Positions 4,335-50,064 are shown, numbered from the stretch's first letter. The stretch is DNA of 52,083 nt from Bacteroidota bacterium (GCA_018829545.1 JAHJTX010000173.1:1-52083), one strand, 5' to 3'. A program made the numbers and translations. The notes: a model not told the origin generated them from the letters alone.

Positions 4335-4389
4335 GTAAATCTCAATTTGTGCCTAAACAAATTTTAAAATTAAATGGGAAGTGTTGGAA

Positions 4390-19342: not shown

Positions 19343-22243
19343 ATGAGACTCAGACTAATTCATTACTTATTGTCTGGAGTACTGTTGTTTCTGTTTTTAT
19401 TTAATAACAATGCTTTTGCAGGTGAAACAGGAAAAATTGCCGGATTTGTTTTGGACAAAAACACCGGCGAACCTTTAATTGGAGCAAATATTGTTGTAAT
19501 TGCTAAATGGGTTGATGGGAAGTCAAGACCACTCGATGCATTACTGGGCGCGTCAACTGACGTTGTTGGGGAATATTTCATTCTTAATATTTCCCCCGGA
19601 CTTTACAGCGTGAAAGCTTCATACGTTGGTTATAAAGCAGAGGTGATAACCAATGTAAATATCAGTGTCGACAAAACCACTGAGGTCAACTTCAACCTAG
19701 AGGATGTCGCATTTGAAAGTGAAGAAGTTGTAGTCACTGCTTTTTCACCTCAGACAGTCGAGAAGGACGTTACGGCAACAAAGCAGGTCTACAATATCAG
19801 AGATGTTGAAAGCATTGCGGGTGTTGCAGATATTGCAGACATTCTTGAACTTCAAGCTGACGTTGTTGACGATCACTTTAGAGGCGGACGCGTTGGCGAA
19901 TCTCTATATTTAATGGGCGGCGGAAGCATTGTTAACCCGCTAAATAATCGGAGAGCTTTTAAGCCAATTACCACCGCTTTGGAACAAGTGGAAGTTTACA
20001 CAAGCGGTTTCAGCGCTGAGTATGGCAATGCACAATCAGGAGTTGTTAATATGATAACGCGCGAAGGGGGAGATACGTGGGAAACCAGAGTTGAGTTTGC
20101 CGGAAAACCTCCGTATTACAAAACCTGGGGCGGCAGTCCCTTTGCGGAAAAGAATTTATACTTCTACAATATTTTGGCGTCAACCGATGCTTGGTTGGAA
20201 GAAAACCCCACACAGCCGGGAAGAGCGTTGTACGATTTAGGTTACGGTTTCGGACCTGCCTATCTTCCTCCAAGAAATGTTTGGCCCCCGAATCCTTTAA
20301 CTACAGCAGAATCCTTATACGTTGCTCGAATTGGGCAAATTGGTTGGCTCCAATCAGTTAGAGATGTGGGCTTAGAATATGACAACACTCCAGATTACAG
20401 ACTGGATTTTACAGTCGGAGGTCCAATTGCAGATAGATTAAAATTGTTCGTTGCCGGAAGGCAAAGCGTAATTAATCCAATTGTTCCAACGCCGGATAAA
20501 GATAACGAAAGGCAGTTGATGAGTAATTTGACTTATCAGCACAATGAGCATAATAAATTTCAATTCAGGTTTGTTTACGATAGAGTTTTTGAAAATGTTT
20601 TTAATAGCAGTTGGGAGCGGTGGCTTTTCGATAGAACCTTCAGCGTTACCAAATCGATTAATACAACCCTTCAATATGGATTAAGCTGGAACCACATCAT
20701 CAATAACTCAACTGTTATGGATATTAAATTCAATATTCTTGATGCTCTATCGGAAGAGCGAATTGATCTATTACAAAACAACGAATTTTTAGAGGATTAT
20801 TCCAGTAAAACAAACTGGGTAGATTTTACGGGTCCTTCGTACCACCGCGTTGGAAGATTAAATGACGACCGGGGAGATCAGCAGAATTATACTTATGATC
20901 TTCATGGCAGCATTTATAGCCAGATGAATAAAAACAATCTCGTAAAGGCTGGTTTGCAGTTCAACTATTATGATGTTGATGTTGCCCGCGAAATGAACAT
21001 TACAAATCCTGCATCGTTCAGAGATGTGAGATTTTTAGCTTATCCTTATGAAGGAGCCTTTTACTTGCAAAATAAAATGGAATATCTCGGATTTATTGCA
21101 AACGTTGGTGTTAGGTTCGATTTCTACAACTTCAACGCAAATTATTATGCTGATGAATTCTCTCCTCTTAGAAATCCCGATTACGACGAATCTCTTCCGT
21201 ATTTAGAACGCGGACAATACTATGACAGAGAATTGGCGGCACGCGAGAAATCGAAACTGTTTACAAAAATGCAGCCGAGAATAGGTATTTCATTTCCTCT
21301 TTCAGAAACAGCGGTGTTCCATTTGAACTACGGAACGTTTACGCAAAGACCGTCATTCAATCAGATATTTTATTCGCAAGTTACTATGTTCAATGAGATT
21401 GAAATTCTCGGTAATCCACGGCTTAAGCCAGAGAATACAAAGGCTTACGACATCGGACTTGTGCAAGCATTCCCTTACGGATTTAAATTAGATGTGAGCG
21501 CATATTATAAAGACGTAACTAATCTTGTTGAAACCGCTTATTACTACGACGAACAACAGGCAGTTTACAGAACTTACAAGAATAGAGATTACGCAGACAT
21601 TAAAGGGTTTCATGTAAGCGTAGAAAAGAACGAAGGAGCGGTTCGAGGATATTTGAGGTACAATTATGAATCTACAACCGGAAAAAGCAGCAACGACTTA
21701 AATGCTCCGGTTATTTATTTCGAAAATCCTCCTGAAGGTCAAGAAAGCATAGAAATACCCGACGCAGAAGATGTTTATTTAGATTATGATAGAACACACA
21801 AAGCAGTTGCCAATATTAGATATGTAACTTCGTCCAATACTGGATTCGAATTCGGCGATATTTATCCGCTCGGAAATATCAGCATAAGCTTAACCTATAA
21901 ATATTATACCGGGCGACCATACACTTGGGATGAATCGGGACAGGGCTTAAAATATAATCAGCGTACACCTGATGAAAATGATATGCGAATTCGTATTGAG
22001 AAAAGATTCAAACTCGGAAATACAGGAATGACCGTTTACGTTGAGGGATTCAATCTTCTTAATGAAAAAATATACAGTTACAGCAGAACGTTTGAAGATG
22101 AGAGAAATACTCCTAAATGGGAACTCGATAGAGAGAATGTTCTGGTCTATGATGAGTACAAACCTTATGTAAGCGATCAATCGATTTATTTATTAAGCAA
22201 TGAACCAAGGAATTTTAGACTTGGTGTATTGTTCAAATTCTAA
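19343..22243 (+). CDS. TonB-dependent receptor with carboxypeptidase-like N-terminal domain
   Basis: A 966-residue outer-membrane active transporter. After the signal peptide (about 1-27) comes a CarboxypepD_reg-like Ig domain (GKIAGFVLDKNTGEPLIGAN, to about 115), then the plug (about 135-240, VEVYTSGFSAEYGNAQSGVV), then a large beta-barrel ending in an aromatic residue (RLGVLFKF), as outer-membrane barrels do. The family imports bulky ligands with energy from TonB-ExbBD. It lacks the length and style of classical SusC, and no SusD follows. As first gene of the uronate locus, directly after the strong promoter and a GGAGGAA ribosome site, it is the likely importer of oligouronides (inference from context). 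Confidence 0.85.
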   Translation: MRLRLIHYLLSGVLLFLFLFNNNAFAGETGKIAGFVLDKNTGEPLIGANIVVIAKWVDGKSRPLDALLGASTDVVGEYFILNISPGLYSVKASYVGYKAEVITNVNISVDKTTEVNFNLEDVAFESEEVVVTAFSPQTVEKDVTATKQVYNIRDVESIAGVADIADILELQADVVDDHFRGGRVGESLYLMGGGSIVNPLNNRRAFKPITTALEQVEVYTSGFSAEYGNAQSGVVNMITREGGDTWETRVEFAGKPPYYKTWGGSPFAEKNLYFYNILASTDAWLEENPTQPGRALYDLGYGFGPAYLPPRNVWPPNPLTTAESLYVARIGQIGWLQSVRDVGLEYDNTPDYRLDFTVGGPIADRLKLFVAGRQSVINPIVPTPDKDNERQLMSNLTYQHNEHNKFQFRFVYDRVFENVFNSSWERWLFDRTFSVTKSINTTLQYGLSWNHIINNSTVMDIKFNILDALSEERIDLLQNNEFLEDYSSKTNWVDFTGPSYHRVGRLNDDRGDQQNYTYDLHGSIYSQMNKNNLVKAGLQFNYYDVDVAREMNITNPASFRDVRFLAYPYEGAFYLQNKMEYLGFIANVGVRFDFYNFNANYYADEFSPLRNPDYDESLPYLERGQYYDRELAAREKSKLFTKMQPRIGISFPLSETAVFHLNYGTFTQRPSFNQIFYSQVTMFNEIEILGNPRLKPENTKAYDIGLVQAFPYGFKLDVSAYYKDVTNLVETAYYYDEQQAVYRTYKNRDYADIKGFHVSVEKNEGAVRGYLRYNYESTTGKSSNDLNAPVIYFENPPEGQESIEIPDAEDVYLDYDRTHKAVANIRYVTSSNTGFEFGDIYPLGNISISLTYKYYTGRPYTWDESGQGLKYNQRTPDENDMRIRIEKRFKLGNTGMTVYVEGFNLLNEKIYSYSRTFEDERNTPKWELDRENVLVYDEYKPYVSDQSIYLLSNEPRNFRLGVLFKF

Positions 22244-22293
22244 TTCAAAATAAAATAAAAATAAAAATGAAAATAGATATTGGAGCAAGAATT

Positions 22294-24528
22294 ATGAGTA
22301 AACAAAGGATAGCAATTCCTTTAATTATAATTCTACTTTTTGCGAGTGCGTTTTCCGGACTTGCGCAAATACGGGAGTATAAAATTCACAATAGAGGAAT
22401 GCTGCATGAAACCGTATACAACACAGGCGAAATCGGAAGAGCATGGATGACAGGTCAGGCGGGCAATAAAACTAATCTTCCTCTTATGGAATGGCCCTCA
22501 AGATCTGCAACAATTGTAGAAGGAATAGAATACAGCGGACAGCATAATATCCTCGGGGCTGGAGTTTATATTGCTGCAAATCCTGATGGAAAACCTGGTT
22601 TAGCAAATAGACTTTATTCATTTTGCGGTGGAGTTGGCGCTAGCGATCCCGAAGTTGCGTTCGGCAGATGGAGTTTTCCAATCAGCTTAGATAAAATTGA
22701 AAACTTCCCGCTACTTTCTGACGGAACATTAAATCCAGATTACGATCCGGATGAAGCTGAAGAAATAATAATTGCTAAATGGGCTTCATCTGTTGGTATA
22801 ACAGTTACCAGAACTTCAAGAGCATGGAGTTATCCAGACTACGACGACATGATTATTTATGAATACGAATTCGAGTATACCGGAGACACAGACGGTAATC
22901 CCGCAACAATAGAAAGAACCGGTACACTAAAAGACGCAATGGTATTACTTATTTACGGCTATGCTCCTTCGATGTACGGTTATCAGAGGCATTATCAAGA
23001 ATGGAAATACGAGGCCGGAATTTACCGCGGCGATCAAAATAATTTTTGGGATGCAGACTACTGGCTATCGTTTAATATGAATCTCAGAACAAATTTGGAT
23101 CCACTTCTTCTCGGAAAACCTGAACCGAATAAAACGCTTTTTAAAGAATATGCGGCATCAGGTAAAAATGGCGGCGGATTAACCTCGCCTCAAGCGCCGG
23201 GTTATGCGATGCTATATTACGATGTTAATCATCTTGCAATTGTTGATCCTCTAGATCAGGTGCGCAATGAATCCGAAGCCGCGCAGATTATGAGAACACT
23301 CGACGGAATTTATTACGAAATCGATGACAATGGCCATGTTAAACAGCCATGGTCAAATAAAGTAAGCACTGGAAACACAAGATCGTCGAAGATGGAAATT
23401 GAATCTATCAATCCGGACAAACGATGGAGTGGTGTTTACAGCGAAGGAAGCACTACATGGCCCATGGTTCCAAGAAATGATCCAAGATGGTACGGACGCG
23501 CTGCTTACCCTTACAGACAGAGCGCTGATGCTGGACAAAAACATACTGTGTTTGGTCCTTATACACTTAAACCCGGAGATAAACTTCGCTATGCAGTCGC
23601 GGAAGTATGCGGCTACGGCGCTCAACCGGGTAAAAAGATTGAAGGCGGACAAACTCAGGTTCAGTGGTTCAACACACCAACTTGGGATACAAAAATTGTA
23701 ATTAAGGGCGAGACTATGGCGGAGAAATATCTTTCCGAATATGGTTACCCCGATTACGTAAATTCAGATGTGCGCAACGTAACTCAGGTTACACACAAAG
23801 CTTTTACAGCTTATTTAGGGCAGGAACCCGTTATTCCAGTTTGGCCGGAAAGCAATCCTTCGGAAGGAGATTATAGGATTCCTGTACCAGTTCCAGCGCC
23901 GATTATTAATGTTACCAATACAGTTGACGGTAATATCAAAATCAACTGGGGACGAGCTGCAGAAGATTTCACTCATTCAAGATTGAGCGGTCAGTTGGAT
24001 AAATACATAGTTCTCCGCAGCGACGCAGGAATGGGACCATGGAATGATACGATTGCAGTAGTTCTTAAAGGGGCTGTGGATCAGGATAATGAATACACGA
24101 TAATAGATGACGATTCTGGATTTAAAATAGGTGAAACCAGATTTTACTCTGTTATATCAGTCGACGAATTCGGCAATACATCGGGTAAAACAAATCTTCA
24201 AAAGTTCGCAAAGAATGTAGGCTCGGTTGACGAAATGAGGAAAGTTTATGCAGTGCCGAATCCGTTCATCTCAAAATCCGGGTTCCAAGGTTCGGGCGAT
24301 GTTGACGACAAAATAGGATTTTACGGCTTGCCGGAAAAATGTACGATTAGAATTTTTTCGTATTCAGGGCAGTTAGTAGAAACAATCAAGCACGACGAAC
24401 CATTATATACCACAGCGTGGTTTCAAGTTACAAAAAACGGACAGGAAATTGCTTCCGGTATTTATTTCTATATAGTTACAACACCTAACGGTGATCAATA
24501 CAAAGGCAAATTCATTGTAATCAAATAA
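22294..24528 (+). CDS. Large exported receptor-partner protein with FN3-like and FlgD-like C-terminal domains
   Basis: About 744 residues. I choose the ATG at 22294 (MSKQRIAIPLI) because GGAG lies eight bases upstream and the signal peptide starts there; 22267 is the in-frame alternative. After the signal peptide come about 500 residues of unassigned, aromatic- and Asp-rich sequence (EIGRAWMTGQAGN, FGRWSFPISLDK, YEYEFEYTGD), an FN3-like domain (about 540-640, PVPAPIINVT to YSVISVDEFGN) and a C-terminal FlgD-like Ig domain of T9SS style (VYAVPNPFISKSG to GKFIVIK). The PNPF form is a variant of NYPNPFNP. It lies right after the TonB receptor and could be a surface glycan-binding partner that replaces SusD. 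This is inferred from position; no SusD TPR fold is evident. Confidence 0.65.
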   Translation: MSKQRIAIPLIIILLFASAFSGLAQIREYKIHNRGMLHETVYNTGEIGRAWMTGQAGNKTNLPLMEWPSRSATIVEGIEYSGQHNILGAGVYIAANPDGKPGLANRLYSFCGGVGASDPEVAFGRWSFPISLDKIENFPLLSDGTLNPDYDPDEAEEIIIAKWASSVGITVTRTSRAWSYPDYDDMIIYEYEFEYTGDTDGNPATIERTGTLKDAMVLLIYGYAPSMYGYQRHYQEWKYEAGIYRGDQNNFWDADYWLSFNMNLRTNLDPLLLGKPEPNKTLFKEYAASGKNGGGLTSPQAPGYAMLYYDVNHLAIVDPLDQVRNESEAAQIMRTLDGIYYEIDDNGHVKQPWSNKVSTGNTRSSKMEIESINPDKRWSGVYSEGSTTWPMVPRNDPRWYGRAAYPYRQSADAGQKHTVFGPYTLKPGDKLRYAVAEVCGYGAQPGKKIEGGQTQVQWFNTPTWDTKIVIKGETMAEKYLSEYGYPDYVNSDVRNVTQVTHKAFTAYLGQEPVIPVWPESNPSEGDYRIPVPVPAPIINVTNTVDGNIKINWGRAAEDFTHSRLSGQLDKYIVLRSDAGMGPWNDTIAVVLKGAVDQDNEYTIIDDDSGFKIGETRFYSVISVDEFGNTSGKTNLQKFAKNVGSVDEMRKVYAVPNPFISKSGFQGSGDVDDKIGFYGLPEKCTIRIFSYSGQLVETIKHDEPLYTTAWFQVTKNGQEIASGIYFYIVTTPNGDQYKGKFIVIK

Positions 24529-24553
24529 TTTTACAATGGCTAAGGGTAAAAAA

Positions 24554-25525
24554 ATGAAATTTATTAAAATAATACTAATTGGCTTTCTACTCTTTTCTTT
24601 TTCAAGCAACTCAATGGCTTTCGAAAAAGTGGGAACAACTTCATTTCAGTTTTTAAAAGTAATTACAACTGCACGAGCTGCTTCATTAGCCGATGCATTC
24701 ACCACGCTTCCTGCAACCTCCGAAGCAGTGTTCTGGAATCCGGCTGCATTAACAAGAGTGCAGAATATTTCGGCTTCGGCTGGATATGTGGACTGGTTTT
24801 TGGATGTGGCGCATTATTCGTTCTCGGCTGCGTATACAGTTGAGGGAATAGGAACATTCGGACTTCAGGGATTAATGACAAATGTCGGCGATATTGAAGA
24901 GACAACAGTAAACGGATTGGGTTATGTGAACGGAGTTTACATTCCAGGTTTAACAGGCAAAGTATTCAGTCCGAATGCAACTATACTTGGTTTGTCATAC
25001 GCTCGAGACTTAAATGACAGATTCGCATTCGGCGTTACGGTAAAATATGCTCGCGAAGACTTAGTTTATAAAAGCGTTGGCGCTGTTATGTTCGATGGCG
25101 GATTCACTTACAACACCGGATATAAATCAATTGTAATCGGTGCGGCTTTGCGCCACTTTGGTCCGGAAGTTAAATTTATTGACAAAAGCTATCCGCTTCC
25201 GCAGACTTTTAATATTGGCATTTCATCGTATCTAATTTCACCTTACGATCCTTTAATTGGAAATTACGGCGATCATTCACTATTGGTTGCGTATGATTTA
25301 ATTCAGCCGAGAGACTACGATCAGCAACATAGCGTTGGAGTTGAATACTCATTCGGCGAAATGCTTTACCTGCGCGGCGGATACAAATTCAACAGTGATC
25401 AAGAAGGAATAAGCACAGGCATTGGACTTAAATTTACGAATTATACAATTGATTATGCTTTTAATGATTACGGCGATTATTTGGATGCAGTTCATAGATT
25501 TACTATCGGTTTCGGTATTAACTAA
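24554..25525 (+). CDS. PorV/PorQ-family outer-membrane protein
   Basis: About 323 residues with a signal peptide (MKFIKIILIGFLLFSFSS). I place the start at 24554 because a weak AAGGG precedes it; 24536 is the in-frame alternative. The mature start FLKVITTARAASLADAF followed by TSEAVFWNPAALT is the hallmark of the PorV/PorQ (UPF0164) group, FadL-like barrels whose members carry T9SS cargo (PorV) or anchor outer-membrane protein complexes. The last strand ends IGFGIN. It follows the large exported protein by 25 bases. It may shuttle the T9SS-tagged lyases of this locus, or form a complex with the receptor. It is a paralogue in style of the next gene. Confidence 0.75.
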   Translation: MKFIKIILIGFLLFSFSSNSMAFEKVGTTSFQFLKVITTARAASLADAFTTLPATSEAVFWNPAALTRVQNISASAGYVDWFLDVAHYSFSAAYTVEGIGTFGLQGLMTNVGDIEETTVNGLGYVNGVYIPGLTGKVFSPNATILGLSYARDLNDRFAFGVTVKYAREDLVYKSVGAVMFDGGFTYNTGYKSIVIGAALRHFGPEVKFIDKSYPLPQTFNIGISSYLISPYDPLIGNYGDHSLLVAYDLIQPRDYDQQHSVGVEYSFGEMLYLRGGYKFNSDQEGISTGIGLKFTNYTIDYAFNDYGDYLDAVHRFTIGFGIN

Positions 25526-25552
25526 AAAAAATTTTTTAGGAGCAAGGCAGTC

Positions 25553-27073
25553 ATGCTTAAATTAAAATTTATTAAAAACTGGGCTTTGGCAATAACAGCT
25601 TTGTTGGTTTTCCCAATTCTACTTAATGCGCAGCATAGGGGAGACAATATTGATTTCCAAGGGCTGTCAGATCTGAATGATGCTGGAGTAAAAGCAACTG
25701 CTATGGGCAGTGCAGTAACTTCGCTATCTGGAGATATAAGTTCACTGTTTTATAATCCTGCCGGTTTAGCGTCAATAAAAGAAATTAAAGTTTCGGCAAC
25801 CGCGAATTATTATTCCAATTCATGGTGGGAGAATCAGCATTACAGACCGAATAGGCTTTTTGTAACTCTTCCTTTTTATTTGGAAGGATTGTACATTCCC
25901 GACCCCGCAGACGATGGGAAACTTGACGTTGATAGGCTATGGACTCCAGATAATTTCATTGACTCTAATTATGTTATTAATCTTCCTGATCTAGGAAAGG
26001 ATCCTTTTGGCAAAGACGCTGCTGATTGGAAGAGAGACGTGAAAGGATTTGCGTTTAACAATTTTGCCGCTGCCGTTCCATTGGAAATATTAGACCAAAA
26101 TTTTGTTTTTTCTGCTGGATTTAGCAGTAAAATAAATATTCAAAACTTCGATCAGAATAATACATATCTCGATCCGCATCCCGGATATTTTGAGTACGGC
26201 GAAATAGGAAGAGTAAACGGTAACGATACTCTAATCGTAAATTGGTCGAGATATCTGCGTCAGAGAGAGGGGTCAGTTTATAGCGTTGTAGGCGGAATAG
26301 GATATGAATTAAATAAAATGTTCAGCTTTGGATTGGGCGTTAACTACATGTGGGGCAGCTCAGACGATTACCAATATCTTGATAGAGTTGGAACTTTTGA
26401 TCTGCTTGACGATAACGATTTTAGATTTTCTTACGCCGATAATTATCAAGAAATAAAAGGCGCTTCAAATTATAATGCGCTCAATATAAACTTCGGATTT
26501 CAGGTCAAGTTGAAAAAATTTCAATTCGGCGCAAAGGTAGATCTGCCTTATACTTTGGAAAGAAGCTTCAGCTTTACCGAAACATTTAAGGATACTGCGA
26601 ATAATACTTCTACCGAAAAATCGGGAATGGACCAATTTAAAATTCCTGCGGTTTATAATTTTGGAGTGAGTTTTTACCCGGTTGAAAATTTTCTTCTAGC
26701 TCTTGATTACGAATATGCTCCGTTCAGCAAAGGCAGTTATTCAATAGAAAGCAGCGGCGAACCTAATAGAAAATGGTCAGATAGGCATACGCTAAAATTC
26801 GGAATGGAATACTCCCCGTTTGATTTTATTTCTCTTCTTGCTGGTTACAGAAATATCCCTACAACATTTATTCCGGATGGGACTGCGGATAAAAAGAGCG
26901 GACCTAAAGCAGACAGTTATACTTTTGGTTTAAGCATCAACACATTTTTTGGACGATTTGACGCTTCTTACGAATACAGAATTTTGAATTACTACGATTC
27001 TTACTTCAGCAATACAAATTACGTTACAGAGACATATACTAACGTAATGGTTGGTTTTGTTTATTCTTTATAA
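25553..27073 (+). CDS. FadL/PorV-like outer-membrane beta-barrel protein
   Basis: A 506-residue barrel protein: signal peptide (about 1-26), then DLNDAGVKATAMGSAVTS and SSLFYNPAGLASI, the FadL/OmpP1 and PorV-type opening. Alternating amphipathic strands follow up to the C-terminal NVMVGFVYSL, which ends in the usual hydrophobic/aromatic pattern. It could transport substrates passively across the outer membrane or serve as a PorV-like shuttle. It is the fourth gene of the receptor module, 27 bases after the PorV-like gene, with an AGGAG about 11 bases upstream. Loop-rich insertions (about 95-150) make it longer than its neighbour. Which of the two functions applies cannot be decided from sequence. 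Confidence 0.7.
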   Translation: MLKLKFIKNWALAITALLVFPILLNAQHRGDNIDFQGLSDLNDAGVKATAMGSAVTSLSGDISSLFYNPAGLASIKEIKVSATANYYSNSWWENQHYRPNRLFVTLPFYLEGLYIPDPADDGKLDVDRLWTPDNFIDSNYVINLPDLGKDPFGKDAADWKRDVKGFAFNNFAAAVPLEILDQNFVFSAGFSSKINIQNFDQNNTYLDPHPGYFEYGEIGRVNGNDTLIVNWSRYLRQREGSVYSVVGGIGYELNKMFSFGLGVNYMWGSSDDYQYLDRVGTFDLLDDNDFRFSYADNYQEIKGASNYNALNINFGFQVKLKKFQFGAKVDLPYTLERSFSFTETFKDTANNTSTEKSGMDQFKIPAVYNFGVSFYPVENFLLALDYEYAPFSKGSYSIESSGEPNRKWSDRHTLKFGMEYSPFDFISLLAGYRNIPTTFIPDGTADKKSGPKADSYTFGLSINTFFGRFDASYEYRILNYYDSYFSNTNYVTETYTNVMVGFVYSL

Positions 27074-27119: not shown

Positions 27120-28763
27120 ATGAGAAAAATTCAAAAACTCATTACTTTCATTTTACTCATCTTTTCAATGAATTTATTCGCTCAGAAGTTCATTGATGTG
27201 AGTGATTCATTCGATTTTCAACTCGCATTGAATTACGCGAACGCAAATAAGGTAGACACGATTTACCTTACTACGAGTGGCGGCGTTTATACCACAACCG
27301 ACACTAATTACTTTAATATAACAACTCCCAAAGTAATTATGCCAAGACCAGGTTTGGCGGAAAGACCAATATTTACACACAGCGCTGTTGATTCAAGCGT
27401 AATTGAAATTTTCCGTGTTTCTAACGATCTAACTATTCAGGGAGTTATATTCGACGGAAGTCATGCAAGAACTCACGGAATGAAATATGCTCTTAGAGCG
27501 GGAGATGGTCCCGACGGCTTCCCGGTTCACAAAACGGGAATGAATATTAAAGTGAAAGACTGCATCTTCCGAAATTTTTATCAAAATAAGTTGTCATCCG
27601 GTCCTGGATATGCAGTATACTTTCTTCTCGGTGTAAATGCAGGCACTGTAATAGTTGAGGACTGTGTAATCGAAAATATGGGCGATGAAGCAATCCGTAT
27701 GACCGAAACAGAAAAATACAGCCCAATCAACAAAAGATGCCTCGATACATTGATTGTTCGCAATACAACATTCACGAATATCGATGCAGAATGCGTTAGA
27801 TTTTACGGAGACGTAGATACTTCTGCGGCAACAACAGATGCGTACGTTTTAGTTGAAAACATTACAATTAATAATAGCGCAACACGAACCATGTACATTA
27901 AGAACAATAAAAACACAACTGTTCGTAATGTGATTATTTCTAATGGAAGACTTCCTGGCGCAGACAGAGCAGACAGAGCAGACTATTTGATTCAGATACA
28001 ATTACCCGGATCAAGTATCACTAATGTAGATACTTTCAATTGTGTATTCGGACCTGTTCCAAGCGCATTGGCAATAAGCGCAGTTAAAGGTGGAACTGTT
28101 GATAATACAAGTATTTTTGGATTTGATCCGCTTTATGTTGATGCAGCAAACGGAGATTTGAAGCTTACTCCCGAATCCCCTGCCTATTATTCAGGGTATA
28201 ACAATACTCATCTTGGCGATGGTAATTGGGCAACAAGTACTCCAACTGTGCTGCCTTTGAATATGACTATTGTTGGTAAAGGCACTGTTATATATAGCCC
28301 AGACAGAAAGGGATATGTCTTTCCAGCAAATACAAATGTAACTTTAACCGCAGTTCCGGATTCAAATTATAAATTTGTTTCTTGGAGCGGAGACGTTACG
28401 AGTACAGATATCAGCACGTCAATTATCGTAGATGCTTTTAAAAATGTAACCGCAGCATTTGAAATAATGACAGAAGTTAACGAAGGCGCTAATATTCCTG
28501 TCGGGTATTCTCTCGGGCAGAATTATCCAAATCCGTTTAACCCAGCAACGACCATTGAATTCACATTGAAAGAGAAAGGAACTACAACTCTTAAACTTTA
28601 CGATGTAATAGGAAGATTGGTTGCAACCGTTATCAATTCTGAGCTAAATCCGGGTTCGCATATATTTCACTTTAATGCCTCGCATTTAGCGTCAGGCGTA
28701 TACTATTATAAATTAACATCTAACGGATTTATTTCAATTAAAAAGATGATGCTTGTCAGATAA
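27120..28763 (+). CDS. T9SS-exported parallel beta-helix protein (DUF4957-like) with InlB-type repeat
   Basis: Exported protein of 547 residues. The start at 27120 (MRKIQKLITFIL) is set by AGGAG eight bases upstream; the open frame extends further upstream, overlapping the previous gene. Order: signal peptide (about 1-22), a right-handed parallel beta-helix (about 25-385, with LTTSGGVYTT, RPGLAERPIF, repeated DCVIENMGDEAIR-type coils), one divergent InlB B-type repeat (about 390-460, LTAVPDSNYKFVSWSGD) and a T9SS domain (NYPNPFNPATTIEF). The helix resembles the DUF4957 group found beside polysaccharide lyases. No Lys/Arg catalytic pair like that of PL6 is evident, so it may bind or cleave uronan. 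It is paralogous to the third helix module of the next gene. Confidence 0.7.
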   Translation: MRKIQKLITFILLIFSMNLFAQKFIDVSDSFDFQLALNYANANKVDTIYLTTSGGVYTTTDTNYFNITTPKVIMPRPGLAERPIFTHSAVDSSVIEIFRVSNDLTIQGVIFDGSHARTHGMKYALRAGDGPDGFPVHKTGMNIKVKDCIFRNFYQNKLSSGPGYAVYFLLGVNAGTVIVEDCVIENMGDEAIRMTETEKYSPINKRCLDTLIVRNTTFTNIDAECVRFYGDVDTSAATTDAYVLVENITINNSATRTMYIKNNKNTTVRNVIISNGRLPGADRADRADYLIQIQLPGSSITNVDTFNCVFGPVPSALAISAVKGGTVDNTSIFGFDPLYVDAANGDLKLTPESPAYYSGYNNTHLGDGNWATSTPTVLPLNMTIVGKGTVIYSPDRKGYVFPANTNVTLTAVPDSNYKFVSWSGDVTSTDISTSIIVDAFKNVTAAFEIMTEVNEGANIPVGYSLGQNYPNPFNPATTIEFTLKEKGTTTLKLYDVIGRLVATVINSELNPGSHIFHFNASHLASGVYYYKLTSNGFISIKKMMLVR

Positions 28764-28868: not shown

Positions 28869-31800
28869 ATGATTTCCTACGTAAAATATTTTAAAAAAAT
28901 GACACTTTTTGTGCTACTGTGTTTTACACCTAATCTTATTCAAGCGCAAACTGTTCATCAAGTAACAGCAGGGACGGATGTGCTTATAGCTGCTGTTACC
29001 GCTGCCGCATCTGGTGATATAATAGAACTTACCACCAGCGGCGGATTATATCTATCAACTGATCAAATTGAAGTTGATAAAGATTTAATTTTCCGAGGCG
29101 CCCCCGGATTAGCCGAAAAACCGATACTTAAATATACCGGCACTTCTACAAGCGCTTACTTTTTCAAAGTAATTGCCTCTCCAAAAGTTAGATTCGAAAA
29201 TCTTGAATTTGATGGAGACGGAGTTGCTGACGGCGCTGCAGCAAAAGCAAAATATGTTCTAAGATTAGACAATGCTGATCCCACAGGAACTATGGATGTC
29301 CGTATGAATAATTGCGTATCTCACGATTTTGCCGACAAGTTTATTAAACCATACGGCAACTGCGGAATTGATTCGCTCTTTATTCACAATTCCGTTTTCT
29401 ACAATGGTGCTTCAGAAGGCATCGTTCTTTATTCCGGGTCTTCAAGCGATCCAGCAGTAGCGTTGGATTATGCAGAAATAGTCAATTGCACTTTCTATGG
29501 CATTACTCGCGAAGCAATTAAAGCCGATACAAATCCAGATACAAAAATACTGGTAGATAACTGCACAATCTATAACTCCGGCGGAACAGCCAAAGGAATG
29601 CTGTATGTTGACGATCTCTTAAACGTAGAAATAAAAAACAGCATTTTTGTTGAAAACGGTTTTGTAGATAACTTTGTTAGATTAGAATCAGATGCCAATT
29701 CATTTCATCATAATGTAGTTTATAATGTTGCAAGCTGGGATGTAGATAATTCTGTAACTGTTTCCGATACTCTTCACGCAAATCCAAAATTTGCAGATGC
29801 TGCTAACGCTGATTTCACACTTGCTCAAGATTCTCCTGCTTTAACTGCCGGTGTTGGCGGAACGGTTGCTGGCGATTTAAGATGGGATCCAAATTTCTTC
29901 TTGCCTAAAGTTCATAAAGTGGAAGCAGGTATAGACGTATTGCTAGCCGCTATAGCTGCCGCGGCGCCTGGTGATACAGTTGAGTTTTCAACTAGCGGCG
30001 GTGTGTATCTTTCCGCAGATCAAATTGAGTTGAATAAAGATTTATTTTTTAGAGCAAGACCCGGTTTAGCTGAAAAACCAATTTTGAAATATATCGGCAC
30101 TTCTACAAGCGCATACATATTTAAAGTAGATGGAACTGCTAAACTATCATTCGTCGGGATTGAATTCGACGGTGACGGCGTTGCAGACGGTGCGGCGGGT
30201 AAAGCAAAATACGCTTTAAGAATTGATACCGGCGATACTCTAAGTGCTATTGAAATTAGAATTGAAGACTGCGTAATGCACGATTTCGCAGATAAAATGA
30301 TTAAACCGTATGGTAATACCGGAATTGATTCTTTAATTGTACACAACACAACTTTTTATAACGGCGCTTCCGAAGGCGTTGTTCTTTATTCCGGATCTTC
30401 GAGTGATCCAGCGGTTCGTTTGAAATATGCTGAGTTTTACAATTGTACTTTCTACAATATTGCTAGAGAAGGATTAAAAGCAGATACTAATCCGAGCACA
30501 AAATTATTAGTAAACCAATGCACATTTTATAACAACGGCAGCACATCAAAAGGACACCTTTATGTTGATGATCTATTAGACGTTGAAATTAAAAACAGCA
30601 TTTTCGTGAAAAACACTTATGTTGAAAATTTTGTCCGTTTAGAATCAGACGCTAACTCATTCCATCATAATGTTGTGTTTGATGTAGCTAGCTGGGATGT
30701 AGATAATTCAGCAACTGTTTCCGATACTCTTCATGCAGATCCAAAATTTGCAGATGCAGCAAACGCTGATTTTACTCTTGGTGCAGATTCACCTGCACGA
30801 ACAGCTGGCGAAGGCGGATTGCCTGTTGGAGACTTAAGATGGGCAATTGATCTTAATAAAAAAATTGTAACAGTTTTAACTGAAGGCAAAGGAATTGTAA
30901 ATCTTGATCCAGTTGGCGGAATATATGACCCCGGGACTCAAGTTCAATTCACTGCTGTTCCTGATGCTAACTGGGAATTCGAAATGTGGGAAGGATTAAA
31001 TGTATTCCCGCCGAACTTGAATCCTGCAACTGTTACTGTTGACGATCATATGACTGTAACTGCTAAATTCAAAAATCTTTCGCCTCAAGTTTCTCTGACT
31101 ATCGATACAGTCGGTTTAGGTTATGTTACAGCCAATCCTGAAGCTGGAGATGATGGAACATACGACAAAGGTGAAACCGTAACTTTAACAGCTACGGGAA
31201 GACCAAATTGGACTTTTGTTGAATGGCTTGGCGATGTTATCGGAACAGAAAATCCAATAACGTTTAATGTTGATTCTAACATGACCGTTCAAGCATCTTT
31301 TGCAAGCACATTAACTCAATTTACACTAACTGTAAACATAGTTGGTAACGGCGAAGTTTTAGCTGATCCAAAACCGATAATTGCAACTTATGATACAAAC
31401 ACAGTTGTGACATTAACCGCTGTGCCTGCAACTGGCTGGGAATTTGGTTCATGGACAGGAGCTTTAACTACAACGGTTCTTGTTGACTCCCTTGTTATGG
31501 ACGGAAACCACGTTGTTACTGCAACCTTCATTGAGAAGCAAGTTGCCGGCGGCGTGCTGGAAATAGACGATTCATGGGATCTATATGATGCAGTAAGTTT
31601 TGCTAATAATAACAGTACTGTTCATACTCTTGAATTAACTACTAGCGGAGGTTTGTATACTTCGAGAAAACCTGAAACAGTATATATTACCAAGCCGTTA
31701 ACTATCCGTGCTAAAGCCGGATTAGAAGCAAAACCAATTCTTACAAACAGTGACCCAAGTACAACCGGTGCTAGTATAGACATCCTTAGAGTATTTGATG

Positions 31801-33131
31801 ATTTTGTTCTTGAGGGAGTTGTAATGGACGGCGGGCATGCAGAATCACACGGTATGAAATATGGCGTAAGAATGTCTCACACCACAGGTGATTCGGTAAA
31901 AGTCGGCGCAAACGTAACTCTTAGGAATGTAGATTTTAAAGATATGTTCGATGGAAAGAGCTTAACTGCTGATGGACATGCTTTTAAAGTTGACGTTTAT
32001 GTACGCGCAGGAGTTATTAAGATTGAAAATTGCACGTTCACCAATACCGGTTATGAGGCTATTAGAATGTCCGACACAGAAAAATGGCCGACAGATAAAA
32101 TATGCGATTCATTAATCGTAAGAAATTGTACTTTCACTAATATTGACGCAGAAGGAATTAGATATTATTCTGATCTTAATCCTCTAACTCCGGATGCGCC
32201 GCTTGTGATTGAACACTTAACATTTAATAACTCCGGCACAAGAACCATGTATTTGAAAAATTCCGGCGGAGCAGTTGTAAGAGACATTGTTATTGCAAAC
32301 ACAAGGCAATCCGGTCACGGTCGTGACAGTGATTTAATGGATTCACAAGGCAATACCGACGCTCCAAGTTATGTAAGCCATATTGTTACATTTAATACAC
32401 CGGATGGTGTTGTATTAAAAGCAGCTGATGGATTGATTGACGAGGAAACAGTTTGGGCTTTTGATCCTAAATTTGAAGATACCGCAAATATGAATTATAC
32501 TTTACTAGCGGAATCTCACATGTACGGATTGGCAAGCGATGGAGAGGCAATCGGCGATTTGAGATGGGCAACTAACACTCCTACTCACGTTTCTCTTGAA
32601 GTAGTTGTTGATGGAAACGGAGAAGTAACTGTTGATCCTGCGCCTGTCGGAAAAACTTATGATAAAGATCAAGAAGTTAACCTCACAGCTGTTGCAGATA
32701 CTGGCTACATCTTCACTGATTGGAGCGGCGATTTAACTTCAACCATAAATCCGGTTAACGTAGTGCTTGAAGTATCAAAAACCATTACTGCTAAATTCGA
32801 TATCGACACTTACGTTGATGAGTTGGGAATTCCTACTGTATTTGCTCTTGAACAAAACTTCCCGAATCCATTCAACCCTAGTACTACTATTAAATATGCT
32901 TTACCGGTGGATGCCAACGTAAGCGTAAGAATTTATAACGTTCTTGGGCAGGAAGTTATTACTCTTATTCGCAACGTTGAGTTTGCTGCCGGATATCAAA
33001 ATGTTGTTTGGAACGGAACTAATAATAACGGCGAAAATGTTTCGACCGGTATTTACATTTACAGAATTGAAGCCAAAGGTATAGACGGCAAAGATTTTGT
33101 TAAATCAATGAAGATGATGTTCCTAAAGTAA
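28869..33131 (+). CDS. Giant T9SS-exported protein with three beta-helix modules and four InlB-type repeats
   Basis: A 1420-residue exported protein with a strong AGGAGG site. Order by residue: signal peptide (1-27); helix module A (about 29-340); helix module B (about 346-655), a close copy of A; three InlB B-type repeats (about 663-895, each with LTA.P...W.F..W.G); helix module C (about 895-1235), which instead matches the preceding gene; a fourth InlB-type repeat (about 1240-1320); and a T9SS domain (NFPNPFNPSTTIKY, about 1323-1420). All three helices open with the LTTSGG.Y motif and a PGL..KPIL segment. It is probably a surface-displayed multivalent uronan-binding or uronan-cleaving protein; the function is inferred from context. 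The near-identical A and B modules indicate a recent internal duplication. Confidence 0.7.
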   Translation: MISYVKYFKKMTLFVLLCFTPNLIQAQTVHQVTAGTDVLIAAVTAAASGDIIELTTSGGLYLSTDQIEVDKDLIFRGAPGLAEKPILKYTGTSTSAYFFKVIASPKVRFENLEFDGDGVADGAAAKAKYVLRLDNADPTGTMDVRMNNCVSHDFADKFIKPYGNCGIDSLFIHNSVFYNGASEGIVLYSGSSSDPAVALDYAEIVNCTFYGITREAIKADTNPDTKILVDNCTIYNSGGTAKGMLYVDDLLNVEIKNSIFVENGFVDNFVRLESDANSFHHNVVYNVASWDVDNSVTVSDTLHANPKFADAANADFTLAQDSPALTAGVGGTVAGDLRWDPNFFLPKVHKVEAGIDVLLAAIAAAAPGDTVEFSTSGGVYLSADQIELNKDLFFRARPGLAEKPILKYIGTSTSAYIFKVDGTAKLSFVGIEFDGDGVADGAAGKAKYALRIDTGDTLSAIEIRIEDCVMHDFADKMIKPYGNTGIDSLIVHNTTFYNGASEGVVLYSGSSSDPAVRLKYAEFYNCTFYNIAREGLKADTNPSTKLLVNQCTFYNNGSTSKGHLYVDDLLDVEIKNSIFVKNTYVENFVRLESDANSFHHNVVFDVASWDVDNSATVSDTLHADPKFADAANADFTLGADSPARTAGEGGLPVGDLRWAIDLNKKIVTVLTEGKGIVNLDPVGGIYDPGTQVQFTAVPDANWEFEMWEGLNVFPPNLNPATVTVDDHMTVTAKFKNLSPQVSLTIDTVGLGYVTANPEAGDDGTYDKGETVTLTATGRPNWTFVEWLGDVIGTENPITFNVDSNMTVQASFASTLTQFTLTVNIVGNGEVLADPKPIIATYDTNTVVTLTAVPATGWEFGSWTGALTTTVLVDSLVMDGNHVVTATFIEKQVAGGVLEIDDSWDLYDAVSFANNNSTVHTLELTTSGGLYTSRKPETVYITKPLTIRAKAGLEAKPILTNSDPSTTGASIDILRVFDDFVLEGVVMDGGHAESHGMKYGVRMSHTTGDSVKVGANVTLRNVDFKDMFDGKSLTADGHAFKVDVYVRAGVIKIENCTFTNTGYEAIRMSDTEKWPTDKICDSLIVRNCTFTNIDAEGIRYYSDLNPLTPDAPLVIEHLTFNNSGTRTMYLKNSGGAVVRDIVIANTRQSGHGRDSDLMDSQGNTDAPSYVSHIVTFNTPDGVVLKAADGLIDEETVWAFDPKFEDTANMNYTLLAESHMYGLASDGEAIGDLRWATNTPTHVSLEVVVDGNGEVTVDPAPVGKTYDKDQEVNLTAVADTGYIFTDWSGDLTSTINPVNVVLEVSKTITAKFDIDTYVDELGIPTVFALEQNFPNPFNPSTTIKYALPVDANVSVRIYNVLGQEVITLIRNVEFAAGYQNVVWNGTNNNGENVSTGIYIYRIEAKGIDGKDFVKSMKMMFLK
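28950..30845 (+). repeat. Internal tandem duplication of a roughly 950-base beta-helix module
   Basis: The segments at about 28950-29890 and 29905-30845 encode near-copies. Shared runs include YTGTSTSAY/YIGTSTSAY, GDGVADGAA, YSGSSSDPAV, ESDANSFHHNVV and SWDVDNS. The DNA also matches over long stretches, with differences mostly at third codon positions. This points to duplication within the gene followed by purifying selection. Confidence 0.75.
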
Positions 33132-33202: not shown

Positions 33203-36148
33203 ATGAAAAAGATATATATCTTTTCTGTCATCATTTTATTACTTAGCTATGCAAGCGGTTATGCAACTGAATTTAAGGTTTCGTCGGCTCTGGAAATTAG
33301 CAGCGCAATGCAAACTGCCCAACCAGGCGATACATTAACAATGCGCGACGGCACATGGACAAATCAAAGAATCGTTATTAGCGGAGCAGGCACGGCTGAG
33401 AAACCAATTCTGATTAGAGCAGAAACTCCGGGTTATGTGATTTTAACCGGTACTACAACATTGTATATAAGCGGCAAGCATTTAATTGTTGATGGATTGT
33501 ACTTCTTAAACGGTTACACAAATAGTGGTTCTGTAATTGAATTTAGAAATGGATCGAGTAATCTTGCGGAAAACTGCCGGCTTACAAATACTGCAATTGT
33601 TAATTACAATCCGGCTTCAAAGAGCACAGATTATAAGTGGATTTCTCTCTACGGAAAAAACAATAGAGTTGATCACTGCTATCTTAGAGGCAAAACACAC
33701 AACGGCACAACGCTTGTCGTTTGGCTTGATGCACAGCCTAACTATCATTTAATAGACAGCAATTATTTTGCTTACAGACCGGAGCTTGGTGTAAACGGCG
33801 GCGAGACTATTAGAATCGGCACAAGTGATTGGTCGATGTATGATTCATATACAACTGTTGAAAACAATTACTTTGAGCAATGCAACGGCGAAGCGGAAAT
33901 AATCTCAAATAAATCCGGACACAATGTTTTTAGATATAATACGTTTTATGAAAGTGAAGGCGCCTTGACTATAAGACATGGCAATTACGCCGAAGTTTAC
34001 GGCAATTTCTTTTGGGGAAATAAAAAGTCAAACACGGGCGGAGTTAGAATCATCGGTGAAGACCACAAAGTTTATAATAATTACTTTCAAGATTTGAAAG
34101 GCACAGGTTATCGCTCAGCGTTAACCATGATGAACGGTGTTCCTAATTCTCCCTTAAACAGATATTACCAGGTTAAAAGAGCGCAGGTTGTAAACAATAC
34201 TTTTGTTAACTGCGTTTCCACATTTTTAATCGGCGCAGGCAAGGATTCTGAATTGAGTCTACCGCCGCTTGATGTTGTGCTGGCAAATAATGCCGCCATT
34301 TCAACATCGCGGTTTATAGAATATGAAGACACTCCAATAAATATAGTTTGGGATAAGAATATAATGTTCGGCGGTCCTTTAGGAATTGATCAGCCGCAAG
34401 GTATAAGTTTAGTTAATCCCAAACTTGAATTGAGCGAAGACGGTATGTACCGTCCAAATGCGGCTAGTCCTTTGATTGATTCGGCATCATCGTCTTATTC
34501 ATTCATAAATTACGATATGGATGGGCAGCTTCGTCAATTGCCTTATGACATTGGAGCTGATGAATACTCATCATATCCAATAATCAGAAAACCAATAACT
34601 GGCAAAGATGTTGGAACATCCTGGTATCCGCCGCCGGCAAAACCGAATCCTATTCTTTTTGTTGAGGCAGGGCAGGATTCACTGCAAAATGCTATCTCAA
34701 AAATTATTAACAAAAACACGATAATAGTTCTAACAACAAGCGGAGGCGTTTACTCTAATTCATCGAGTATAGTTGTGAATAATCCGCTAAAAATTAAAGC
34801 TGCGCCAGGTTTAGAAAAGATGCCGGTTATAAATCAAAATAATCCGGAAACCTCTACAAGAGTTATATTCGAAATCTTGGACGGCGGCAGTTTGAATTTA
34901 ACAGGCGTTGAATTGGACGGACTCGCTAATTCTTCAACACCGGCCAAATATTTAGTTAGAACCGACGATGCGCCAATGACAAAAACCTATAATTTATTCA
35001 TTGACAGTTGTTACTTTCATGATGTTGTTGTAGGAAGTGACGGTAATTTTTTTAGAGCTTACGCAGGCACAAAAGCAGACACAATTAAGATCACAAACTC
35101 ACTCTTTACAAATGCGGGCAAGGAAGGCTTCAGACTTAAAGACGAAAGCTCAAACTCAAGTCAGTTTAACGTAAACTACTTTGAAGTAACAAATTCAACT
35201 TTCTGGAATATTAACAGAGAGGCAATAAATATTTATGCAGGTGACAATGTAATATTTACTCCATGCCCGGTAATTAGAATTAATCATAGCACGTTTGATA
35301 ATTGCGGTTATGCGGGAACTTCCGCTGTTCTGGCAAACGAAGTTGATGACACAAAAATTAGAAATTCAATCATTTCTAACGGATCAATATCTTCAGCTTC
35401 TGTAATTCTCTATGGTCAGCTCGCATCAATTTCGTATACGAATATTTTTAACGGCGGAGAAATTCAATTAAACAGAAACGCTGTTCTCGGGAATGGAATA
35501 GTAAGCTATAATCCTTTATTCACAGATAGAGTTAACGGGGATTTTACGCTTCCATCTAATTCACCGATGCTGGGTCTTTCCGATGATAATAAGGCGTTAG
35601 GCGATTTGCGATGGGCAGTTAATGCGGCATCATTCTACAAACTTACACTAGCTCAGTTCGGAGAGGGAGCAATAATTGTTGAACCTGAAACCGTAGCGAA
35701 CAATTACGAACCCGGCACAGAAATTACTCTTACTGCAATTCCGGCGCAGGATTACGAATTTACACAGTGGTCGGGAGATATTAGCGGAACGGATTCAATA
35801 ATTGCTGTTACAATAAATTCGAATAAGACGGCTATTGCGGTATTTACTAAAGTAACCTCACTAGATGAAGTAAGCGACTTTCCGGCGGGTTATTCGCTTT
35901 TACAGAATTATCCAAATCCATTTAATTCTAAGACTGTTATTAAGTTTCAAGCGCCAAGCAACGGGTTTGTTAAACTAATAGTCTATGATTTATTGGGAAA
36001 AGAAATTCAGACATTGGTAAACGAAGAAAAATTACCTGGAATTTATGAAGTTATTTTTAATGCATCTTCTCTAACCAGCGGAGTTTACTTTTATAAATTG
36101 ACAACAGATAATTTTATTGAAATCAAAAAAATGGTTCTTCTCCGATAA
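33203..36148 (+). CDS. PL6-family alginate lyase with second beta-helix, InlB repeat and T9SS domain
   Basis: A 981-residue exported lyase. After the signal peptide (about 1-21) comes a PL6 (chondroitinase B/alginate lyase) beta-helix (about 23-430). The catalytic base Lys237 in ISNKSGHNVF and acid Arg258 in LTIRHGN are 21 residues apart, the same spacing as Lys220/Arg241 of the known PL6 enzyme AlyGC; nearby Glu230 and Glu232 fit its calcium site. A second helix of the type in the preceding genes follows (about 481-805, LTTSGGVYSN). Next come an InlB-type repeat (about 811-885) and a T9SS domain with the variant NYPNPFNSKT. PL6 enzymes cleave alginate (often polyMG or polyG) by beta-elimination, mostly endolytically. 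Surface display is expected. Dermatan-type substrates are the less likely alternative. Confidence 0.85.
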   Translation: MKKIYIFSVIILLLSYASGYATEFKVSSALEISSAMQTAQPGDTLTMRDGTWTNQRIVISGAGTAEKPILIRAETPGYVILTGTTTLYISGKHLIVDGLYFLNGYTNSGSVIEFRNGSSNLAENCRLTNTAIVNYNPASKSTDYKWISLYGKNNRVDHCYLRGKTHNGTTLVVWLDAQPNYHLIDSNYFAYRPELGVNGGETIRIGTSDWSMYDSYTTVENNYFEQCNGEAEIISNKSGHNVFRYNTFYESEGALTIRHGNYAEVYGNFFWGNKKSNTGGVRIIGEDHKVYNNYFQDLKGTGYRSALTMMNGVPNSPLNRYYQVKRAQVVNNTFVNCVSTFLIGAGKDSELSLPPLDVVLANNAAISTSRFIEYEDTPINIVWDKNIMFGGPLGIDQPQGISLVNPKLELSEDGMYRPNAASPLIDSASSSYSFINYDMDGQLRQLPYDIGADEYSSYPIIRKPITGKDVGTSWYPPPAKPNPILFVEAGQDSLQNAISKIINKNTIIVLTTSGGVYSNSSSIVVNNPLKIKAAPGLEKMPVINQNNPETSTRVIFEILDGGSLNLTGVELDGLANSSTPAKYLVRTDDAPMTKTYNLFIDSCYFHDVVVGSDGNFFRAYAGTKADTIKITNSLFTNAGKEGFRLKDESSNSSQFNVNYFEVTNSTFWNINREAINIYAGDNVIFTPCPVIRINHSTFDNCGYAGTSAVLANEVDDTKIRNSIISNGSISSASVILYGQLASISYTNIFNGGEIQLNRNAVLGNGIVSYNPLFTDRVNGDFTLPSNSPMLGLSDDNKALGDLRWAVNAASFYKLTLAQFGEGAIIVEPETVANNYEPGTEITLTAIPAQDYEFTQWSGDISGTDSIIAVTINSNKTAIAVFTKVTSLDEVSDFPAGYSLLQNYPNPFNSKTVIKFQAPSNGFVKLIVYDLLGKEIQTLVNEEKLPGIYEVIFNASSLTSGVYFYKLTTDNFIEIKKMVLLR

Positions 36149-36182
36149 TTAAAAATTTTTCTCACATACTCCCCAAAAAATA

Positions 36183-38096
36183 ATGATAAAAAGAATCTAC
36201 ATAAGCATAGTTTGTTTTATAATATTTAGTTCTTCATACAGCCAGCAGTGGCAGTCCGATCTTGTGTTCTACACTGATGACGGAAAACTGGTTTATATAA
36301 GAGATTCCGAAGGAAATACAATTCCAGACTTTAGTTATGCGGGTTATAAAAACGGAAACGATACTATTCCCTTTGTTCCGGTAGTAAAAACAATCTCACC
36401 AATTGCAGGCGATAATACACTCCATATTCAAAGTGCATTGTTCGAAGTTGGATTGATGCCCATTAACTCAGATGGAATTAGAGGGGCATTGCTTTTAAAT
36501 ACGGGGACCTATGAAATTAAGGGTACAATCAACTTAGGCTTCGATGGAGTAGTGCTCCGCGGCTCGGGAGATGGATCAGACCCGGCTTCAAATACAATTC
36601 TCAATGCAACGGGTAATTCACCAAACCAAAGAACAGTTTTGATTGCAGGCGGCGGAGCCAGCACAAAGTGGAGAGAACAAGTTTCAGGTACAAAAACAAA
36701 TATCATTACTGATACAATTTTAGTTGGAGAATCGCAGTTTGAAGTCGAAAATATAGCTAGCTACAAAGTCGGCGATAATATAATAATATTTCACCCAGGT
36801 ACGGATGGCTGGTTGCAAGCTGTTGATTACGGTGGAACTCATTCCAACGATCCGGGCGCCGATCCGAGCGTAGATCTGCCGTGGAGTCCGAATGCTTGGC
36901 CGATAGTTTTTAACCGCTATATAAAAGAAATTGAAGGCAACAAAATCACAATTGACGTACCTTTATTTAATACGCTCGTGAAAAGTCAATCACAATCATA
37001 TATCTATAAATATGCTAGAACAGGTCTTAAAACTAATATTGGTATTGAAGATTTACGAATTGATATTCAGTCTGCCGGCGGTACAGATGAAAGCCACGCT
37101 TGGCAGGCAATTGATCTTTACTTAATAGAAGACTCGTGGGTGCGCAACTGTACGATGCTTCATTTTGGTCAATCAGCCGTGCGGTGTAACACTGCAACAA
37201 GAATAACAGTTGTTGACTGTGATGCACTTGATCCTGTAAGCACAATAGAAGGCGAACGTAGATATAACTTTAATGTTTACACTGCTTCTCAGCAAATACT
37301 TTTTTATAGATGCAATGCAACGGACGGAAGACATGCCTATGTTTCAAACGGTACAACGTGGACTTCCGGCTGTGCATTTGTTGATTGTACTTCGAAAGGG
37401 GCATACACAAGCAGCGAAGGACACCGCTCATGGAGCATGGGTATATTATTTGATAATCTAATTGAATTGGATGGACCAAGACCAGGGCTAAATCCGCGCT
37501 TACTTGGTTTATATAATAGAGGTTATTACGGAACCAGTCACGGTTGGGCAATTGCACACTCAGTTGCGTGGAATTGTGACGTAGCGAAGGGATATCTAAT
37601 AGTTCAGAAACCGCCGACTGCCCAAAATTATGCTATTGGCTGTAAAGGAAATATAACCGGAAAATACCCCTCCGCCCCTTTTGATGAACCGGAAGGATAT
37701 ATTGAAGGAGCGAATAAGAACAATCTTCACCCACGCTCACTCTATCTGGCTCAATACGAAGAAAGAATGAAAAATATTGTTTCCGTTAAAGAGTTTGTTC
37801 ATTCGGCTTCAATACCAGAATCTTTTGAGCTATTCCAGAATTACCCTAATCCGTTTAATCCTTCAACGACAATTTCATTTTCTCTTCCACAAAACAGTAA
37901 AATTATTGTGAAGGTCTATAATTCCATTGGCAAAGAGGTCAAAGAACTCTATAACGGTTACATGGAAAAGGGAACAAATTTTTTGAAATGGAATGGTACA
38001 AATAATCATCACGGCAAAGCTGCGTCCGGAATTTATTTTCTTACTGTTTCTAGTGATTTGGGAATGAGAACAATTAAAATGATGCTGATCCAATAA
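36183..38096 (+). CDS. T9SS-exported beta-helix protein of unassigned family, candidate polysaccharide lyase
   Basis: A 637-residue exported protein: signal peptide (about 1-20), then a pectate-lyase-like right-handed helix (about 60-520) and a T9SS domain (NYPNPFNPSTTISF, about 555-637). The helix opens with a cap-like region where a periplasmic superhelix usually starts (LLLNTGTYEIKGTINLG, VVLRGSGDG). It carries conserved-looking polar clusters such as EDSWVRNC, NFNVYTASQQ, HRSWSMG and SHGWAIAHSVAWNCD. It lacks the PL6 Lys/Arg spacing and does not match the other helix proteins here. I cannot assign it to a numbered lyase family. Its place between the PL6 and PL5/PL38-type genes, 34 bases after the first and 9 before the second, argues for a uronan-active enzyme. 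Confidence 0.65.
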   Translation: MIKRIYISIVCFIIFSSSYSQQWQSDLVFYTDDGKLVYIRDSEGNTIPDFSYAGYKNGNDTIPFVPVVKTISPIAGDNTLHIQSALFEVGLMPINSDGIRGALLLNTGTYEIKGTINLGFDGVVLRGSGDGSDPASNTILNATGNSPNQRTVLIAGGGASTKWREQVSGTKTNIITDTILVGESQFEVENIASYKVGDNIIIFHPGTDGWLQAVDYGGTHSNDPGADPSVDLPWSPNAWPIVFNRYIKEIEGNKITIDVPLFNTLVKSQSQSYIYKYARTGLKTNIGIEDLRIDIQSAGGTDESHAWQAIDLYLIEDSWVRNCTMLHFGQSAVRCNTATRITVVDCDALDPVSTIEGERRYNFNVYTASQQILFYRCNATDGRHAYVSNGTTWTSGCAFVDCTSKGAYTSSEGHRSWSMGILFDNLIELDGPRPGLNPRLLGLYNRGYYGTSHGWAIAHSVAWNCDVAKGYLIVQKPPTAQNYAIGCKGNITGKYPSAPFDEPEGYIEGANKNNLHPRSLYLAQYEERMKNIVSVKEFVHSASIPESFELFQNYPNPFNPSTTISFSLPQNSKIIVKVYNSIGKEVKELYNGYMEKGTNFLKWNGTNNHHGKAASGIYFLTVSSDLGMRTIKMMLIQ

Positions 38097-38105
38097 ATCA
38101 AGAGC

Positions 38106-44813: not shown

Positions 44814-44825
44814 ATGGGTGAAAAG

Positions 44826-46611: not shown

Positions 46612-46637
46612 TGAATTATAAATTTATAGGAGATGAC

Positions 46638-50038: not shown

Positions 50039-50064
50039 ACTTCTTTTGAAATTAGGAGATTCTC

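Follow-up and report, generated by a model that had tools for sequence, protein, structure and literature searches.

The window analysed here is an entire contig of 52,083 nucleotides from a Bacteroidota bacterium (assembly of 4.1 Mb, 98.6% complete), and it carries four genes that form a strongly conserved outer-membrane set, encoding a TonB-dependent receptor, a large exported protein that we term BIG, a PorV-like barrel and a FadL-like barrel. We consider it rather probable that BIG leaves the cell through the type IX secretion system (T9SS), stays attached to a PorV-like barrel of its own and acts for the receptor as a capture protein or lid; the cassette apparently takes the place of the SusC/SusD import machine in these bacteria, most of which lack SusD. 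The four ORFs, which were verified as lying tightly packed on one strand, are listed below together with the sorting domain of BIG.

19343-22243, + strand: TonB-dependent receptor, 966 aa, with a CarboxypepD_reg N-domain and a TonB_dep_Rec barrel (Pfam)
22294-24528, + strand: BIG, a 744-aa exported protein with a signal peptide, a beta-rich body and a type IX tail
24226-24525, + strand: PorZ/PorU-like sorting domain at the C-terminus of BIG (residues 645-744)
24536-25525, + strand: PorV/PorQ-family barrel, 329 aa (NCBIfam)
25553-27073, + strand: FadL-family barrel, 506 aa (Pfam), with weak similarity to BamG

An earlier note on this DNA had described four tightly spaced genes in a fixed order, and both the ORFs and their order proved to be real. 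The intergenic gaps are 50, 25 and 27 bases if the last three genes start at 22294, 24554 and 25553; using the ATG at 24536 for the PorV-like gene would shrink the middle gap to 7, and BIG has an alternative upstream ATG at 22267. A scan for promoters and terminators returned fewer promoter-like sites than expected by chance. The receptor matched the PF00593 barrel domain (63.2 bits, cut-off 27) and is not a SusC/RagA protein by TIGR04056, against which it scored 34 bits, under the curated cut-off; no receptor in this genome reached that cut-off (no match over 368 bits).

A search of 58 related genomes returned eight close orthologs of BIG (48-71% identity), each of which adjoins a receptor; as far as their contigs extend, the gene order is unchanged. 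Among named genomes, a scan turned up 80 BIG loci (37-71% identity) labelled as Ignavibacteria, Calditrichia, Neomarinimicrobiota, KSB1 and Rhodothermales, along with one on a contig labelled Caldisericaceae (L158), which has a typical cassette and is possibly misbinned. Neighbours were counted at the 78 of these 80 loci where BIG is one ORF. The earlier note had named homologues lying mostly away from TonB receptors as the finding that would count against it; instead, a receptor lies directly upstream of BIG at 76 of the 78 loci, and distant paralogues also occur in trios with a receptor. A PorV-like gene is beside BIG at 72 loci and a FadL-like gene at 65, and all four genes are present in the same order at 62 loci across several phyla, with median gaps across the ortholog cassettes of 16, 9 and 8.5 bases. 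Nearly all of the incomplete cassettes are owed to contig ends or to the simple ORF caller; L109 appears frameshifted and the PorV slot in L098 was uncalled. An order found in nearly all of 80 loci, from several phyla, is more than chance would produce.

Downstream of the cassette the locus fits the use of alginate or a related uronan, a substrate suggested by the enzyme families encoded there:

27120-28763, + strand: secreted protein with a beta-helix (DUF5123) and an ordinary type A sorting domain
28869-33131, + strand: 1420-aa repetitive secreted beta-helix-like protein with a FlgD_ig/type IX tail
33203-36148, + strand: chondroitinase B/PL6-type lyase with a type A sorting domain
36183-38096, + strand: 637-aa secreted protein with a type A sorting domain
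38106-39281, + strand: alginate lyase (PF05426)
39323-42853, + strand: GH88-GH2 fusion
42882-44123, + strand: second alginate lyase (PF05426)
44151-45860, + strand: KDPG aldolase and PfkB sugar kinase, the latter a KDG kinase by context
45883-46611, + strand: GntR/FadR-type regulator
46611-47393, + strand: SDR dehydrogenase, by context a candidate uronate (DEH) reductase
47408-49585, + strand: oligoalginate-lyase-like protein (Hepar_II_III_C; Alg17C_C slightly under cut-off)
49676-51342, + strand: cupin (by sequence) and MFS transporter

The beta-helix-like N-terminal part of the 28869-33131 protein has an internal near-duplicate. The stretch 33203-39281 was considered as a second receptor-BIG-PorV module and rejected, as its genes encode the PL6-type lyase, the secreted protein and the alginate lyase. 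Upstream, at 4381-8156 of the window, two overlapping ORFs in different frames appear by eye to be a single C25-type peptidase, type IX tail included, split by a frameshift, whether by assembly error or as a broken gene.

The same four-gene order recurs beside gene sets other than the alginate type: in genome G019 the cassette is accompanied by sulfatases and other genes in place of the alginate set. Neighbours of the four-gene subfamily are often, and not always, PL6-type, heparinase/oligoalginate-lyase-like and DUF5123 beta-helix genes, and such neighbours extend to Rhodothermales. Distant BIG paralogues, in this genome and its relatives, are found in receptor-BIG-PorV trios without a FadL-like gene. 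A single genome has many copies of this looser trio, lying next to CAZyme genes of the alginate, pectin and other types, with GH2, GH3, GH43, GH28 and pectinesterase genes among the neighbours, and also in non-CAZyme places. The proposal of a module with two barrels holds for the four-gene subfamily; the general module is the trio, and the FadL-like barrel accompanies only the four-gene subfamily, of which it is an extra.

To count trios without bias, we took all PorV-family genes above cut-off in three closed chromosomes (n = 36) together with the regions around the matches. A trio was present at 20 of the 36 loci (19 strict, and L230 with one inserted gene), and at two more a receptor is adjacent and a BIG-type tail is encoded a few genes upstream. 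The remaining PorVs are others, including one between large type-IX-tailed proteins that we have taken as secretion core. Two of the trios (L222 and L235) adjoin ATP synthase genes and two (L239 and L242) adjoin other housekeeping genes, with no CAZymes present; glycans, the ligand originally suggested, are therefore not the sole possible substrate, and a glycan role is not general. The BIG proteins of these four loci are 1093-1198 aa long.

Some variations on the arrangement were also seen. At L226 and L240, from two genomes, a BIG-type tail, a protein with a type A tail and another gene precede the receptor and PorV. A second, divergent trio in the order PorV-receptor-BIG lies on the opposite strand next to an orthologous cassette (L059:11660-18051). 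At L080:6714-7904 a protein of about 400 aa with a lipobox and a TIG domain is encoded directly behind PorV, and similar-sized proteins occupy the same slot at several other trios, for example L079, L081, L073 and L087; these are candidate surface glycan-binding lipoproteins.

The C-terminus of BIG had been described as FlgD-like. There is indeed a C-terminal domain, and it is a type IX sorting domain, which implies the route by which BIG is delivered: the tail matched the T9SS type A model TIGR04183 at 25.0 bits (cut-off 23; NCBIfam), and this genome encodes the type IX translocon SprA (998.6 bits). The best NCBIfam match of BIG was to the PorZ C-terminus (NF052228); we do not regard BIG as PorZ proper, since the score of 32.6 bits is far under the cut-off of 260 and the match is confined to residues 645-740. 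The extreme C-terminus has a near-invariant G-K-F/L motif. The PorZ model was matched by the tails of 47 of 54 orthologs and 12 of 20 paralogues, and the ordinary type A model was also matched by 53 of the 54 orthologs (E<=0.01), so that the BIG tail might still be cleaved and the protein released. Among 52 proteins encoded beside cassettes, 38 have type A tails; PorZ falls outside the 25 most-matched families for these proteins, which means that at most one of the 52 matches it. BIG proteins have ordinary signal peptides, that of the window ending ..SGLAQ, and regular-expression matches to a lipobox were found in only 4 of 98 BIG proteins, none of them convincing.

The third gene of the cassette scored 180.9 bits against the PorV/PorQ family model (NF033709, PorV_fam; cut-off 90; NCBIfam) and is not a T9SS core PorV/PorQ equivalog (NF033710, 61.7 against 250; NF033711, 91.2 against 220). 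Near its mature N-terminus the motif KVGTTSFQFL is invariant in the ortholog set. In a tree, the T9SS-core PorVs formed a clade of their own (100/100) and the trio PorVs lay outside it, strongly clustered (4 label changes compared with 16.4 in shuffles). Genomes of the group have 10-41 PorV-family matches each. It has been reported that the PorZ sorting domain stays on PorQ and that of PorU on PorV, with a protective role suggested for cognate barrels (PMC10202324), and that type B cargo is held by PorP-like barrels, SprB by SprF and PG1035 by PorP (PMC9143113). Carriers collect their cargo inside SprA by a cognate carrier mechanism (PMC10994853). The earlier note had offered the PorV-like barrel as an anchor or a shuttle; the resemblance to the PorZ sorting domain favours the first, retention on the barrel, over a shuttle that releases its cargo. 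By analogy with these systems, we would expect the PorV-like barrel to act as a dedicated carrier and to retain BIG at the surface.

It might be argued instead that the barrel is a shuttle for the type A-tailed enzymes of the locus and that BIG is one more cargo, as several locus proteins carry type A sorting domains and PorV is the known carrier of this class (PMC10994853). We think this improbable. Several trios, L222, L234 and L242 among them, lack a type-A-tailed enzyme in their neighbourhood, which argues that the partner of PorV is BIG rather than the enzymes; moreover, a T9SS-core-type PorV gene is separately present in this genome, and the tail type differs between BIG and the enzymes.

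In order to assess whether the partners diversify together, we correlated their distances over nine trios inside this single genome, with significance taken from permutation. The strongest correlation was between the receptor and the BIG body (r=0.91, p=0.0004), followed by receptor and PorV (r=0.88, p=0.0016) and PorV and the BIG tail (r=0.73, p=0.011); the one-genome design removes the effect of species history, while an operon inherited as a unit can also yield high distance correlations between proteins that make no contact. These values bear on the possibility that BIG and its barrel are a T9SS surface pair, glycan-binding or adhesive, merely co-regulated with the receptor and forming no stable complex with it. 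We regard this as unlikely, although many polysaccharide loci include secreted binding proteins, separate downstream TIG-domain lipoprotein candidates exist in some relatives and the fold of the BIG body is not SusD-like. Against such a pair stand the strict receptor adjacency over very different loci, enzyme-free ones included, and the correlation of receptor and BIG body, the strongest within this genome.

Outside the tail, the remaining approximately 640 residues of BIG matched no Pfam family and no PDB sequence, with no carbohydrate-binding family seen in the body. Structure prediction from nine sequences was poor (pLDDT 58.4) and from 79 sequences reached pLDDT 90.9; in the latter model BIG is predicted to be mainly beta, and Foldseek returned PorZ (5m11) and PorU (6za2). 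For the body, Foldseek gave only weak matches to GH172 and GH94 enzymes (TM 0.22-0.23), a likeness that we dropped as functional evidence. These matches, to a GH172 arabinanase and a GH94 phosphorylase, and the many invariant charged and aromatic residues in the BIG alignment could nevertheless suggest an enzymatic BIG, perhaps a divergent lyase or hydrolase, that is tethered next to the receptor. With TM values no higher than 0.23, no catalytic Pfam family in BIG and related proteins recurring beside unrelated gene sets, we give this little credence.

The module had also been put forward as a candidate replacement for SusD. This is plausible because the genome itself lacks SusD domains (PF07980 and PF14322 are both absent); PF07980 was absent from 46 of the 58 genomes in the search of relatives. 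BIG is not itself a SusD, as it has no Pfam SusD match, no lipobox and a mainly beta predicted structure. Failing on membership weakens the statement that BIG is a SusD and leaves untouched the statement that it works like one.

The fourth gene exceeded the FadL/Toluene_X cut-off (PF03349, 40.3 bits, cut-off 29.7), and the label BamG was rejected for it (NF053685, 61.3 bits, cut-off 250). This resemblance to BamG, taken with the proposal that BamG-H-type outer subunits aid SusCD assembly (PMC12611786, PMC12578637), raises the idea that BIG and the barrels are receptor assembly factors, like the extracellular BamG-H dome. One co-diversifying set per receptor is more in keeping with stoichiometric partners than with a shared factor, however, and most trios have no BamG-like barrel, and we hold this explanation to be highly improbable.

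Returning to BIG as a barrel-held partner of the receptor, the cassette may work as follows. The signal peptide would take BIG across the inner membrane, and BIG would then exit through SprA by means of its C-terminal sorting domain, as is expected from the domain family. The neighbouring PorV-like barrel would collect the BIG tail at the translocon and keep it, so that BIG stays on the surface; the PorZ-like domain, the absent lipobox, the co-diversification and the published precedents all suggest such retention. The BIG body would be positioned over or beside its cognate receptor as a substrate-capturing subunit or lid, a role to which gene order and the absence of SusD point. The receptor would import the ligand by TonB; at this locus, oligosaccharides of alginate or a related uronan, produced by the secreted lyases, are the most likely ligand. 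More speculatively, the FadL-like barrel may be a further docking platform or a second port.

Ignavibacteria and their relatives encode many polysaccharide-degrading enzymes, yet SusD is absent from most genomes examined, which puts in question how large oligosaccharides are taken up. The cassette is a concrete candidate answer; it would assign a role to many of the PorV-family proteins in each genome, tie type IX secretion directly to nutrient import and serve in annotation as a marker of polysaccharide loci missed by SusCD-based searches. There is perhaps an even chance that it represents a third large-ligand import complex of FCB bacteria beside SusCD and BtuBG, comprising a receptor and a PorV-anchored T9SS lid, present in many copies in Ignavibacteria and with near relatives among Calditrichia, Neomarinimicrobiota, KSB1 and Rhodothermales, and serving glycans and other ligands. 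We found no published account of the cassette in the open literature, most subscription journals being outside the scope of that search.

Among known systems, PorZ-PorQ and PorU-PorV place a surface protein with a retained type IX tail on a PorV/PorQ-family barrel, as is proposed for BIG, and BIG tails match PorZ; these are parts of the secretion machine, whereas the BIG pair is multiplied per genome and tied to TonB receptors, and apart from its C-terminal part BIG shows no relation to PorZ. SprB-SprF and PG1035-PorP share the principle of one anchoring barrel per cargo (SprB with the adjacent SprF), but with type B tails and PorP-like barrels, while the BIG tail is nearest to PorZ/type A and its barrel is of the PorV family. 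The comparison with BamG and FadL barrels concerns the fourth gene, which encodes a FadL-family barrel and, at 61 bits, lies well below the BamG cut-off of 250. BtuB-BtuG is a stable complex of a TonB receptor with a surface companion other than SusD (PMC10404256), as proposed here; BtuG is a lipoprotein, and BIG is not. Finally, as in SusC/SusD (RagAB), a CarboxypepD_reg TonB receptor is paired with a large surface companion, often beside CAZymes; SusD, however, has a helical TPR fold where BIG is predicted to be mainly beta, and BIG has no SusD domain or lipobox and is accompanied by a PorV-family barrel and by a receptor below the SusC cut-off. We infer complex formation and substrate binding, and on this basis BIG would work in a SusD-like manner with a different fold and a different anchor.
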